Shown here: positions 17,656 to 22,298 of the stretch, piece by piece | How the letters are laid out: every line of letters begins with the position of its first letter | How positions within the stretch are numbered: the first letter of the stretch is position 1 | Source: Thiomicrorhabdus cannonii | GTDB taxonomy: Bacteria; Pseudomonadota; Gammaproteobacteria; Thiomicrospirales; Thiomicrospiraceae | Length of the DNA stretch: 64,000 bases | Direction: 5' to 3' | Assembly: GCF_013391695.1 (NCBI RefSeq) | Contig: NZ_JACBGH010000005.1 | Coordinates: 62,001-126,000 of the forward strand | Translations under genes and position numbers: made by a program | Notes under the pieces: generated by a model | Databases searched by the model: none | Seen by the model: the letters and a program-made list of their open reading frames with translations, nothing else | Told to the model about the DNA's origin: nothing

Positions 17656-19036
17656 AAGTACCATGTTATGGCGTTCAACTTTAAAACCGCTGGCGCTGGC
17701 ATTGGCAATGGGTTCTTCGGGCGTGCTCGCCAATCCGGGGGCATCCGGATTGTTGGATGTCTATCAGATGGCATTGTTGCAAGATGCCAAACTGGCTCAG
17801 GCGCGTGCCCAATATGACGCCAATCAGCAGCTTTTACAGCAGGCAAAAGGGGCCTTGTTGCCTAATATCAGCGCCAGCGGCAGCTATACGATCGGCGACA
17901 TCGACTATACCGACCGCACCAGCACCAATGTGGGCGTTAACCTAACGCAACCCCTTTATAACCGGGCCGCCTGGTCGGGCTATGAACAGGCCAAGAGCGT
18001 GGTGCAGCAGGCTGATTACACGTTCAAGAGCGCTGAGCAGGACTTGATCGTGCGCACCACGGACGTTTACTTCAAGGTCTTGCTGGCGCAGGAGGATTTG
18101 AATCTGGCATTGGCACAGGAAGCCGCCGATAAGATTCAATGGGAACGCGCCGAGGCGTCAGCCGAAGTCGGCCTGGCGAGTCTGACGGATGTGCTGCAAG
18201 CCAAATCGAGTTACGATCTGTCCAAGTCTAACCGCATCAATGCCGAAAATGCGTTGGATGTCGCGAATGAAGCGTTGTTGAAGCTGACCGGTAAGAACAT
18301 TGCCTCCTTGAAAGTATTGGCGCTGCAAGTTGCGCTGCCGCAGGAGCATTTGGCGATGTCGGATTGGGAGGCACGTGCCGAGAACGACAATCTGACCGTT
18401 AAAAATCTGCAAAGCCAGGTCGATATCGCCACGCACAATATCGAAACGCAGAAATCCGGACATTGGCCAACCGCCAACCTGCAAGCCAACTATTCCAATA
18501 CCGACTACAACGGCTATCCGTCCACCATCACCGGTAAGGAAGATGTGCAAAATACCAGCGTCGGTATCAATGTGAGCGTGCCGCTTTATGCGGGCGGCGC
18601 AACCACCGCCAAAGTGAGTGAGGCGCGCTATCAGCTGCAGGCGGCCGAACAGGCGCTGCGTGACAGCCGTGAACAGGCGCGTTTGGATGCGCGTGTACAG
18701 GTGCGCACTGTGGAGCGCGGCCAGAGTCTGGTTGCCGCCTTGCGTGAAGCGGTCAAATCCGGCAGCGCCTTTTTGGAGGCCGCTGAAGAGAGTTACAAGG
18801 TCGGCTTGAAGAGCCTGCTGGAAGTCTTGACGGCGCGTTCCAACTATTTCAGCGCACGCCGCAATCTGGTGGAAGCCCTGCACAATCAGGTGGTCAATCG
18901 CCTGAAATTGGAAGCGACAGCCGGCGATTTGCAGGCGGACGACTTGCAGACCTATGACCGTTTGCTCACCGCGCCCGAAGCGCCCAATATGATGCAAGAC
19001 CATACGTTGGTTGAAAACGCCGCACAAGGTTCGTAA
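17633..19036 (+). CDS. tolC: TolC-family outer membrane channel
   Basis: A protein of 467 residues with an N-terminal signal sequence (to about 35). Two repeats of the outer membrane efflux domain follow, each with long coiled-coil helices and short beta segments (GVNLTQPLYNR and GINVSVPLYAGG). It forms the trimeric outer-membrane exit duct for type I secretion and multidrug efflux. GGAG sits ten bases upstream of the ATG. No partner membrane fusion protein or inner pump is adjacent. Confidence 0.92.
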   Translation: MKKQNRSKSTMLWRSTLKPLALALAMGSSGVLANPGASGLLDVYQMALLQDAKLAQARAQYDANQQLLQQAKGALLPNISASGSYTIGDIDYTDRTSTNVGVNLTQPLYNRAAWSGYEQAKSVVQQADYTFKSAEQDLIVRTTDVYFKVLLAQEDLNLALAQEAADKIQWERAEASAEVGLASLTDVLQAKSSYDLSKSNRINAENALDVANEALLKLTGKNIASLKVLALQVALPQEHLAMSDWEARAENDNLTVKNLQSQVDIATHNIETQKSGHWPTANLQANYSNTDYNGYPSTITGKEDVQNTSVGINVSVPLYAGGATTAKVSEARYQLQAAEQALRDSREQARLDARVQVRTVERGQSLVAALREAVKSGSAFLEAAEESYKVGLKSLLEVLTARSNYFSARRNLVEALHNQVVNRLKLEATAGDLQADDLQTYDRLLTAPEAPNMMQDHTLVENAAQGS

Positions 19037-19045
19037 TTTTTGTTC

Positions 19046-20551
19046 ATGCCTAGTCGCCGCGGTTTAATTAAAACGCTTTTGCCCCTGGCGGGGCTGGGAT
19101 TGACGGCCTGTAACCGCAGCGAAAACCCGCATAGCATTCGCATGGGCGTCAACGCGCGCCCGCGTATGCTCGATCCGCGCAAGGCCACCGATGCCTTGTC
19201 GAGCCGCGTCAACCGTTTGCTCTACCGCCAGTTGGTGGATTTTAACGAACGCTTTGAAGCGGTGGCCGATTTGGCAGAATGGCAACAACTCACGCCGCAG
19301 CACTATCGTTTTACCCTCCTTGAAAGCAGTCAATTCCATAACGGCGAGTCGCTCACTGCCGCCGATGTGGTCGCCACCTATCAAAGCGTGTTGAATCCCG
19401 ATTTTGGCTCACCACACCAAGGCTCGCTTAAAAACATTAAACAAGTGGTTCAAGTTGATGATAAACAAGTGGATTTTTGGCTTCATGCGCCTGATCCGCT
19501 GTTTGTCGGCCGCCTGGTCATCGGGATTTTACCCAAGTCATTGATTGACTCGAATCATCCGTTTCATGAACGCCCGGTGGGGTCTGGTGCGTGCCGTTTT
19601 ATCAGCCTGAATGAGCAGAAATTGGTGCTGCAACGGCCGGACAAAGTGACTCTGGAATTCATTAACGTCAAAGACCCGACCGTACGCGTGCTCAAGTTGA
19701 AGAAGGGCGAGATCGACCTGCTGCAGAATGATCTGTCGCCCGAACTGATCCATTACTGCGAGCAGCAAAGCGGTTTGCAGGTGCAGTGGCAGCATGGCAC
19801 CGGATTCGGCTATCTGGGCTTTAACTTTGACGACGCGCTGCTGTCGCAACTCGCCGTGCGCAAAGCGATTGCCTACGGCATTGACCGGCAGGCGATCGTG
19901 GATGCCTTGTTCAACGGCCACGCGCGTCTGGCGGGCGGGCTGTTGGTACCGGAACATTGGGCAGGCGTGCCGGATATCCACGGCTTTGCATATGACCCCG
20001 AACTAGCGAAACTCAAATTGACAGAGGCGCAGATTCCGCAAACATCGCGTAACGCGGAAGGGCTGATCGAACTGAGTTTCAAAACCTCCAATGACCCGAC
20101 ACGCATCCGTTTGGCCACCATCTACCAGTCGCAATTGCGCCGCATCGGCATTCATTTGAACATCCAAAGTTACGACTGGGGCACCTTTTACAGCGATATC
20201 AAGCAGGGAAGGTTTCAGCTTTACAGTCTGGCGTGGGTGGGGATCAAAAGCCCGGATATTTTCCAGTATGTGTTTGCCAGTAATGCGATTCCGCCAAACG
20301 GCGCAAACCGTGGGCGTTACCGTGATAGCGATGCCGATCGTTTGATTGCATTGGCAGCGAATCAGCAGAGCTTATCCGAGCAGGCGGAAACTTACCGTGC
20401 TTTGCAACGCCATCTGCAGCAGACATTGGCTGCCATGCCGTTATGGTATGAGGATCAGTATGCGGTCAGTCGCAACAACGTGCACGGTATGCAACTCTAT
20501 GCCGACGGACGCTTGGACGGGTTATTAAAGGTTAAGAAAGTCACGCTTTAA
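19046..20551 (+). CDS. ABC transporter substrate-binding lipoprotein, family 5 (peptide type)
   Basis: About 501 residues from ATG 19046 (a TTG six bases earlier is possible). A lipoprotein signal ends in LTAC, with the lipidated cysteine at residue 22. The rest is the two-lobe solute-binding fold of the oligopeptide/dipeptide/nickel family: RMGVNARPRMLDP, then YRFTLLESSQFHNGESLTAADVVATYQ, and IAYGIDRQAIVDALFNGHA. It starts nine bases after tolC. Two permeases of the matching type lie 4-5 kb downstream, but no ATPase genes are in the window. Confidence 0.9.
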   Translation: MPSRRGLIKTLLPLAGLGLTACNRSENPHSIRMGVNARPRMLDPRKATDALSSRVNRLLYRQLVDFNERFEAVADLAEWQQLTPQHYRFTLLESSQFHNGESLTAADVVATYQSVLNPDFGSPHQGSLKNIKQVVQVDDKQVDFWLHAPDPLFVGRLVIGILPKSLIDSNHPFHERPVGSGACRFISLNEQKLVLQRPDKVTLEFINVKDPTVRVLKLKKGEIDLLQNDLSPELIHYCEQQSGLQVQWQHGTGFGYLGFNFDDALLSQLAVRKAIAYGIDRQAIVDALFNGHARLAGGLLVPEHWAGVPDIHGFAYDPELAKLKLTEAQIPQTSRNAEGLIELSFKTSNDPTRIRLATIYQSQLRRIGIHLNIQSYDWGTFYSDIKQGRFQLYSLAWVGIKSPDIFQYVFASNAIPPNGANRGRYRDSDADRLIALAANQQSLSEQAETYRALQRHLQQTLAAMPLWYEDQYAVSRNNVHGMQLYADGRLDGLLKVKKVTL

Positions 20552-20641: not shown

Positions 20642-20824
20642 TTAGAACTCCCGCTTTAATGTATTAAGTGCTTCGTCCTGATGGTGCGATAGCGGTTTGT
20701 GTTGCATAAAATCCGTTACCGTGGCGATGGAGTTGGCAATGACTTCTGCCGGACTCACACTGACAATGGCAATGGAGAGTACTGACGCTTTAAACAGCGT
20801 CTGAAAAAAAGATGAACGTCTCAT
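20642..20824 (-). CDS. 60-residue exported peptide under riboswitch control
   Basis: The ATG at 20824 is preceded by AAGGAAGG, a strong ribosome-binding site. The first 30 residues form a signal peptide (RRSSFFQTLFKASVLSIAIVS, likely cut near EVIA). The mature peptide is only about 30 residues, hydrophilic, with a histidine pair and a charged C-terminus (NTLKREF). No family is recognised. It is the only gene downstream of a c-di-GMP-I riboswitch, so its expression probably tracks the biofilm/motility signal. It is convergent with the substrate-binding protein gene. Confidence 0.75.
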   Translation of the reverse strand: MRRSSFFQTLFKASVLSIAIVSVSPAEVIANSIATVTDFMQHKPLSHHQDEALNTLKREF

Positions 20825-20954
20825 TTTAACCTTCCTTTTTTAGAGTCGTACCGAGCGTGATATTCAACGCAGCGGCGTGATGACAATGAAAAATTGAAGG
20901 CACAAAAATGTTAGAAGTGACACGAATAAACCCACGACCCGAATGTTTCGCGGG
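20825..20954 (-). promoter_or_regulatory. expression platform and 5' leader between riboswitch and peptide gene
   Basis: Reading on the minus strand, the hairpin CCCGCG/CGTGGG (20949-20954 with 20931-20936) is followed by TTTATTC, a weak terminator-like element directly after the aptamer. About 100 further untranslated bases precede the ribosome-binding site. Whether ligand turns the gene on or off cannot be told. Confidence 0.45.
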
Positions 20955-20956
20955 GA

Positions 20957-21059
20957 TTATTTGGCAACCGGCTGTCTTAGCAGAGTAACGTCACCGTTTC
21001 CCGTCTAAGACCCTTGGCTTTCCGTCCTTGCTTCACAACAAGTTTGGCACAACAAATAA
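20957..21059 (-). ncRNA. c-di-GMP-I (GEMM) riboswitch
   Basis: Read on the minus strand, outer helix P1 is TTATTTG/CAAATAA (21053-21059 with 20957-20963). Next come GCCAAA, a helix CTTGTT/AGCAAG capped by the GNRA loop GTGA, then GGACGGAAAGCC (family consensus GACGCAAAGCC). After that comes a long helix with perfect base GTCTTAG/CTAAGAC, and finally CAGCCGGTTGCC. This order and the GNRA loop with distal helix match GEMM-I throughout. One departure is G instead of C in GACGCAAAGCC. The upstream AT-rich sequence to about 21120 holds the likely promoter. Nothing else is seen up to 21191. Confidence 0.8.
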
Positions 21060-21191
21060 TAAGCCCATTAATTTAATGGACTTAGTTGAATTTTACTCTT
21101 AAATAATCCTTTTTTAAAAGTATTTTTTTATTAAAGCTCTTCATTATTAACGGGTTATCTTCACTACTTTGGCGTGATTCTTAGCAATCAT

Positions 21192-22298
21192 TCAGGTATT
21201 CAAGCGCACCGGCAGGCGGCGGTTGCCCCAGGTGCCGTGACTGGCCGCAAATACGCCGGCAACCGCTGCGCCGCAGGCATCGCAGCAACCCTTTCCGTTT
21301 TCATTAAGATGCAGGTGCCAATCGGTAATTTCGTAGTGCTGTCTGCCAATGAGTTTTTGGGCACACTCCGGACAATAGGTGGCCTGACCTTGCGGGTTGA
21401 AGACATTGCCGGTATAGACATATTTCAATCCGGCCTGCATGGCGATTTCGCGCGCCATTTCAAGCGTTGAAGCCGGGGTGGGCGGGTTGTTCATCATGCG
21501 GTAATCGGGATGGTAAGCGGTGAAGTGCAACGGCACTTCGGCGCCACAGTGGTTGATAATCCACTTGCACATCGCTTCGATCTCTTCTTTGGAATCGTTT
21601 TCGCCCGGAATCAGCAAGGTGGTGAGTTCAAGCCAGCAATCGGTCTCATTGGCCACATATTCGATGGTGTCCAATACGGGCTGTAATTTCGCGCCGGTCA
21701 GCTTCTCGTAAAAGGTGTCGCTGAACGCTTTCAAATCGATATTGGCGGCATCCATCCATTTAAAGAACTCTTTGCGCGGTGCTTCGCTGATGTAGCCGGC
21801 AGTGACCGCGACATTTTTGATTCCCAACGCGCGGCACGCTTTGGCGGTGTCGATGGCGTATTCGTAAAAAATCACCGGATCGTTGTAGGTATAGGCAACG
21901 GAGGCGCAACCGTAATACTTGGCGGCTTGGGCAAGCGCTTCGGGTTTGGCCTGATCCAGCAGGCGATCCATATCGCGTGCTTTCGACATATCCCAGTTCT
22001 GGCAGAATTTACAGGCCAGATTGCAGCCTGCCGTACCAAAGGAGAGCACCGAACTGCCCGGCAGAAAGTGGTTGAGCGGCTTCTTCTCGATCGGGTCGAT
22101 ACAGAAGCCGCTGGAGCGTCCGTAGGAGGTCAGCCACATTTTGTCGTCCTTGCGACCGCGTACAAAACAGAAGCCGCGCTGGCCTTCACGCAAGGTGCAT
22201 TCGCGTGGACACAGGTCACACTGAATCAGACCGTTGTCGAGGGCGTGCCAGTGCTCGACTGGAATGACCGACGGGTGTGAAAGGTCAATATTTTTCAT
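21192..22298 (-). CDS. amrS: AmmeMemoRadiSam system radical-SAM enzyme
   Basis: A 368-residue radical-SAM protein of the PflA-like branch. The cluster motif CNLACKFC has Cys92, 96 and 99. Extra cysteines at 27, 30, 34 and 44 near the N-terminus and a CPEC/CCDAC zinc-ribbon-like tail are typical of the family. It is divergent from the genes for the two partner proteins (Memo-like and AMMECR1-like), completing the three-part system named by comparative genomics. The reaction it catalyses is not known to me. Confidence 0.93.
   Translation of the reverse strand: MKNIDLSHPSVIPVEHWHALDNGLIQCDLCPRECTLREGQRGFCFVRGRKDDKMWLTSYGRSSGFCIDPIEKKPLNHFLPGSSVLSFGTAGCNLACKFCQNWDMSKARDMDRLLDQAKPEALAQAAKYYGCASVAYTYNDPVIFYEYAIDTAKACRALGIKNVAVTAGYISEAPRKEFFKWMDAANIDLKAFSDTFYEKLTGAKLQPVLDTIEYVANETDCWLELTTLLIPGENDSKEEIEAMCKWIINHCGAEVPLHFTAYHPDYRMMNNPPTPASTLEMAREIAMQAGLKYVYTGNVFNPQGQATYCPECAQKLIGRQHYEITDWHLHLNENGKGCCDACGAAVAGVFAASHGTWGNRRLPVRLNT

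Follow-up and report, generated by a model that had tools for sequence, protein, structure and literature searches.

The 60-codon reading frame that follows a c-di-GMP-I riboswitch in this DNA is probably the shrunken successor of a riboswitch-controlled gene for an exported DUF2202 protein, with a leader that would control translation by sequestering the ribosome-binding site (RBS). In seven relatives from the same genus, the orthologous riboswitch drives an exported-type DUF2202 (PF09968) protein of normal size, and the original prediction that the tiny size of the target marks a special c-di-GMP output is not supported. The window shares with these loci the place, the leader element and an exported-type product, and differs from them in that its product has only 60 residues and no DUF2202 domain. 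A tiny riboswitch target need not, then, be an important new output, as reading the locus across the genus exposes a lost target of normal size. Should the peptide prove functional, the locus would be a clear example of a novel exported peptide that arose behind an inherited riboswitch.

The riboswitch, its leader and the short reading frame

The window, that is, the whole 64,000-nucleotide stretch of Thiomicrorhabdus cannonii DNA analysed here, was searched in its entirety with cmscan against 4227 Rfam families. Two matches reached the gathering score, a c-di-GMP-I (GEMM-I) riboswitch aptamer on the minus strand (RF01051, 20960..21058) and a t44 RNA on the plus strand (RF00127, 39494-39588, 65.6 bits). 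The aptamer aligned with the full length of its covariance model (positions 1-87 of 87) at 59.6 bits, where 35 is the gathering score, with an E-value of 4e-9, and the loop of its P1b hairpin is GUGA, of the GNRA type. These results bear out the GEMM-I identity that had been proposed from the sequence alone. In the cmscan alignment, model position 11 carries G and not A; we take this position to be G20 of Vc2 and G11 of Cd1. In place of Vc2 G20, A is the cGAMP base. With the G at this presumed ligand-selectivity position, the window aptamer reads as an ordinary c-di-GMP-I member that is predicted to bind c-di-GMP. No difference from RF01051 was seen in the aptamer, and any novelty lies in the tiny target. 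One published study treats G20 of Vc2 and G11 of Cd1 as a factor in selectivity among cyclic dinucleotides and not as a hard filter (PMC9262584).

Two hairpins flank the aptamer on the same strand. An AT-rich hairpin of 11 pairs stands immediately 5' of it (21060..21084, minus strand) and was the sole terminator-like site returned by a consensus scan in which 0.8 would be expected by chance. A similar palindrome is found at the equivalent position in the close relative G004. The promoter-like sequence TAAAAT ends at 21090, before this hairpin, and the transcript may accordingly start just before the hairpin. Right after the aptamer, RNA folding gives the hairpin CCCGCGA/UCGUGGG followed by UUUAUU (20931..20954, minus strand), which might act as a terminator or pair with the 3' strand of P1. 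For most of the nine leaders compared below, folding also predicts a hairpin near this point. Farther along the minus strand lie the leader element CAUUUUUGUGCCUUC (20896..20910), identified by alignment and, in the predicted folds, paired with the Shine-Dalgarno sequence and the start codon; the Shine-Dalgarno sequence GGAAGG itself (20830..20835), read from the sequence; and the ATG-initiated reading frame of 60 codons (20642..20824), at the place of the relatives' DUF2202 gene. The upstream neighbour encodes an AmmeMemoRadiSam-system radical SAM enzyme (21192..22298, minus strand; NCBIfam TIGR04337, 613.9 bits). On the other side, a gene for a family-5 solute-binding protein (19040..20551, plus strand; PF00496) is convergent and served as the synteny anchor.

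The aptamer, the CAUUUUUG element and the RBS are alike across nine leaders, namely those of the seven DUF2202 loci, of the window genome (G000) and of G004. CAUUUUUG is the first eight bases of CAUUUUUGUGCCUUC and is invariant in all nine, while the rest of CAUUUUUGUGCCUUC is kept in seven and differs in G021 and G030. The element is complementary to the RBS plus start codon, and in each of the nine minimum-energy folds it forms pairs within the 17 bases that end with the AUG, engaging 5-14 of them. Of 200 shuffles, 199 were less stable than the leader part of the window (138 nt; z -3.08); in four of the nine leaders the z-score was only -1.1 to -1.5. When the plain duplex between element and RBS was compared with 69 decoy sites, at most 3 decoys were as good in G015, G009, G005, G000, G004 and G030, and the duplex was weak in G018, G021 and G025, where 9-12 decoys equalled it. 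The modelling suggests that element-RBS pairing is a translational expression platform common to the nine loci. In the mechanism that we propose, the c-di-GMP-I riboswitch with its RBS-sequestering leader would control translation of the short reading frame through this predicted pairing, and binding of c-di-GMP would shift the pairing, in either direction. Enforcing part of the aptamer helices in the folds left the accessibility of the Shine-Dalgarno sequence nearly constant in all nine leaders and that of the AUG nearly constant in seven. In G000 and G004, AUG accessibility fell from 0.24 to 0.10 and from 0.56 to 0.09, respectively; this fall, seen in these two models only, gives a hint of an OFF switch on which we do not rely.

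The 60-codon frame is the sole gene downstream of the aptamer, the next gene being the convergent one, and the expectation of a short exported-type precursor as the only downstream gene was correct. Judged by eye, its N-terminus resembles a signal peptide with a possible cut between VIA and NS, which would leave a mature part of about 30 residues; the peptide is thus presumably exported. It matched no family in Pfam (E <= 1) or NCBIfam (E <= 0.1), and hence no DUF2202 domain. The peptide of G004 is 98% identical to that of the window genome. The frame had been expected to be conserved behind the aptamer in relatives; this holds for G004 and, at E <= 0.1, for no other of the 32 genus genomes, two more rows at E 0.0975 being read as non-relatives. 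A scan of wider genome contigs, which reaches close relatives only and may exclude the records of the window genome itself, returned one record that we take to be that of G004. No copy of the peptide was found on plasmids.

The same locus in related genomes

In the set of 32 genus genomes, which includes the window genome, the anchor gene was found in 30 and its surroundings were readable in 28; G011 and G023 were dropped as the frame-finding motif failed there. A motif search behind the anchor gene gave the aptamer with DUF2202 in seven of the 28 (G005, G009, G015, G018, G021, G025 and G030), the aptamer with the 60-residue peptide in two (G000 and G004) and neither pair in the other 19, with G001 and G028 offering fewer than 450 bases to search. 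The product behind the aptamer in the seven is an exported-type precursor of 209-237 residues. G005, G018 and G025 share one arrangement, in which the radical SAM gene is followed by the aptamer, the DUF2202 gene and the convergent solute-binding protein gene. The orthologous locus of the window is laid out alike, with the peptide where these genomes have DUF2202. The radical SAM and solute-binding protein genes are adjacent with nothing in between in G020 and G026, and the radical SAM gene is located elsewhere in G014 and G031. The G004 genome yielded no radical SAM gene and the sequence upstream differs from that of the window, with the aptamer-peptide unit itself kept. We also observed that the G004 locus (L051, C216) is missing 224 bases of a TolC-like gene relative to window positions 18286-18509, through either a deletion or an assembly error.

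In a tree of the anchor gene, which is a single-gene tree with a midpoint root and several open forks, G000 and G004 are sisters (100/100). They group with G018, G005, G025, G008, G014 and G031 (support 90/96), the forks inside this group being among those left open. The other four DUF2202 genomes fall in a second group alongside G010 and G016, which do not have the pair. Within the first group, the 1480 bases that follow the solute-binding protein gene of G008, G014 and G031 contained neither the aptamer nor the DUF2202 motif. No DUF2202 match was present in G000 and G004 at E <= 0.001 in a search that spanned 36 genomes and left out G023-G031. The simplest history, as far as these sequences go, is that a common ancestor of both groups had the riboswitch-DUF2202 pair and that the domain was lost in the G000/G004 lineage. 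The ancestral riboswitch would then have controlled an exported DUF2202 protein of the ferritin-like MJ0754 type, and in the G000/G004 lineage the gene would have shrunk to 60 codons, retaining the signal peptide and about 30 residues.

The proteins of G005, G009, G015, G018 and G021 matched PF09968 directly, and those of G025 and G030, which are 76% and 67% identical to that of G018, were assigned to DUF2202 on this ground. The G018 protein matched MJ0754 in phmmer at 2e-52. The best of five structure models of this protein had a mean pLDDT of 82.4, the remaining four reaching 53-56. In Foldseek the model matched the crystal structures of MJ0754 (PDB 3q4n and 3q4r) at 1.9e-14, with a TM-score of up to 0.96 by target length; the next, far weaker matches were aldehyde-deformylating oxygenases, Dps and bacterioferritins. 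In these relatives, the place of the peptide is held by a protein with the fold of an MJ0754-type ferritin-like protein. The first bundle helix in the model spans residues 46-73, so that 60 residues are not enough for a four-helix bundle, and the peptide could not adopt this fold.

The association of aptamer and DUF2202 was also followed outward from the protein. Around the DUF2202 matches of genus genomes, an aptamer lies within reach at five of 15 loci; the sixth aptamer of that scan belongs to a 10-kb locus of G025 that lies beyond the 15. Among 20 class-wide loci, drawn from 23 class-wide DUF2202 matches and comprising 19 outside the genus and one of G026, none had a GEMM-I aptamer within reach, with about 1.5 kb of flank available for each. 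In the samples taken, GEMM-I before DUF2202 seems limited to this genus. A literature search, made under the genus name Thiomicrospira for the riboswitch targets, found nothing in print on DUF2202, MJ0754 or the c-di-GMP-I targets of this group.

Origin and present role of the peptide

Descent of the peptide from DUF2202 was probed in its two parts. In local alignments, its signal peptide beat composition shuffles against the DUF2202 signal peptides of six of the seven relatives (0.001-0.009), with G005 at 0.229. When a profile of DUF2202 N-termini was run against 1801 reading frames, the peptide appeared at E 0.15 and rank 36-37, below DUF2202-type proteins and at least one seemingly unrelated signal-peptide frame (L110, E 0.014). 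Since this unrelated frame outranks the peptide, the likeness of the signal peptides is weak and not specific. The mature part has no significant likeness to DUF2202 in the seven relatives. Shuffled tails scored as well in 716 of 5000 trials for the best relative and in 1954 of 5000 for the next, and the other five gave no gain. Sequence proof that the mature part descends from DUF2202 was consequently dropped as not significant, despite the end of the peptide aligning near the MREEEK motif. With no significant likeness in the mature part, the case for truncation is built on the position, the leader and the signal peptide, and another short gene may instead have taken over the place; we infer shortening of the DUF2202 gene as the origin.

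The two genomes that carry the peptide differ by about 9% in the flanking genes. The unit from aptamer to stop codon has 12 changes in 417 bases, compared with 29-47 in flanking windows of the same size. Within the reading frame there are 3 changes in 183 bases (1.6%), two synonymous and one V15L; flanking windows of equal length have 16 on average, and none of the 2395 has fewer than 4. The leader behind the aptamer has 3 changes in 135 bases, and the aptamer, with 6 in 99, is the most changed part of the unit. The frame is intact in both genomes, with no frameshift and no stop. Parts of the solute-binding protein gene are also low, with four or fewer changes in 15 of 433 sixty-codon windows. 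The unit of leader and reading frame may still be in use, unless it was recently exchanged. Given two sequences with two synonymous changes and one non-synonymous change, constraint on the peptide, constraint on the RNA and recent exchange are indistinguishable. Given the unusual conservation of leader and frame between the two species, the peptide may have a role.

The readings weighed here concern mainly the present role of the stub, and the standing that we give them does not exclude the explanation by shortening. That the riboswitch now drives a dead stub, a decaying remnant on its way to being lost, is doubtful but deserves real weight. No DUF2202 match is left in the window genome, the members G008, G014 and G031 of the same group have already neither the aptamer nor the DUF2202 motif behind the anchor, and the codon usage of the frame is mediocre, with a relative adaptiveness of 0.54 compared with 0.60-0.79 in 11 neighbouring genes, even as the frame is the best-scoring of the six by this measure. 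Neutral decay, however, predicts a divergence at least as high as the ~9% of the flanks, and the observed 1.6%, free of frameshifts and stops, speaks against it unless the unit was recently exchanged. The same low divergence, below every flanking window of that size, is what favours the view put forward in the original prediction, that the 60-residue precursor is a dedicated c-di-GMP output such as a secreted matrix component, a signal or a modulator of a surface machine. The RBS-sequestering fold predicted in both G000 and G004 agrees with it, as does the survival of the unit in G004 behind a differing upstream sequence and with no radical SAM gene found. Still, the peptide occurs in two close species only, at the place of the relatives' DUF2202 gene, and belongs to no Pfam or NCBIfam family; synonymous sites are equally frozen, which may reflect recent exchange or constraint at the RNA level and not selection on the peptide. 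We consider a dedicated output unlikely. Slightly less credence goes to the view that the lineage, by shrinking the target of its riboswitch, made out of an exported ferritin-like protein a secreted, c-di-GMP-controlled peptide of about 30 residues with a function of its own, with both peptide and leader under strong purifying selection.

Conservation across the whole 417-base unit would also be expected if the transcript acted mainly as RNA, for example as a c-di-GMP sponge, with the reading frame incidental. There is a published parallel in merRNA of Bdellovibrio bacteriovorus, a massively expressed, lineage-restricted c-di-GMP riboswitch RNA that is proposed to store c-di-GMP and for which no conserved downstream reading frame was found (PMC3627812). 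Of the cases known to us, merRNA is the nearest to a c-di-GMP riboswitch without a normal-size target. The likeness lies in the missing normal-size downstream gene and in the restriction to one lineage, and the difference in that merRNA has no conserved reading frame whereas the window unit has an intact frame with an RBS, kept in G000 and G004. A role as RNA appears improbable, as the aptamer carries most of the changes of the unit, the frame is intact in both species, and predicted structure is concentrated in the leader around the RBS, the RNA of the reading frame being no more structured than shuffles (z -0.73). A literature search on c-di-GMP riboswitches together with small peptides, small signal-peptide reading frames or pseudogenes found nothing relevant.

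Other c-di-GMP-I aptamers in the genus

GEMM-I aptamers were found in 16 of the 32 genus genomes, the window's own included, and in 20 of 58 genomes overall. Together they outline a set of c-di-GMP-I targets in the genus, in which the ferritin-like DUF2202 proteins of exported type stand alongside products that look like chemoreceptors, PEP-CTERM proteins and small proteins of exported type. The window genome has a second GEMM-I aptamer (C1:124221-124308, L001) before a chemoreceptor-like gene. No conserved small reading frame was found behind this aptamer, where a 61-codon frame with a TTG start has no counterpart of at least 45 codons ahead of the chemoreceptor-like gene in G005. Both this locus and L004 of G005 place the aptamer before an apparent methyl-accepting chemotaxis receptor, recognised as such by its N-terminal sequence.

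At L016, L018, L020, L021 and L030 (in G027, G008, G007 and G022), GEMM-I aptamers precede exported-type proteins with a PEP-CTERM-like sorting tail, which Pfam confirmed in G027, the sole one scanned. These sequences suggest control of surface or matrix proteins by c-di-GMP through targets of the PEP-CTERM type. Tandem GEMM-I aptamers about 100 bases apart occur at L009, L010/L024 and L025 (G018, G025 and G002), before exported-type products of 106 residues in G018 and G025 and 90 residues in G002, of which those of G025 and G002 had no Pfam match over the cut-off. On one contig of G007 (C125, L020/L029), where the copy at 381-464 was followed by no exported-type reading frame in the 380 bases before the contig end, three GEMM-I aptamers lie within 2.2 kb.
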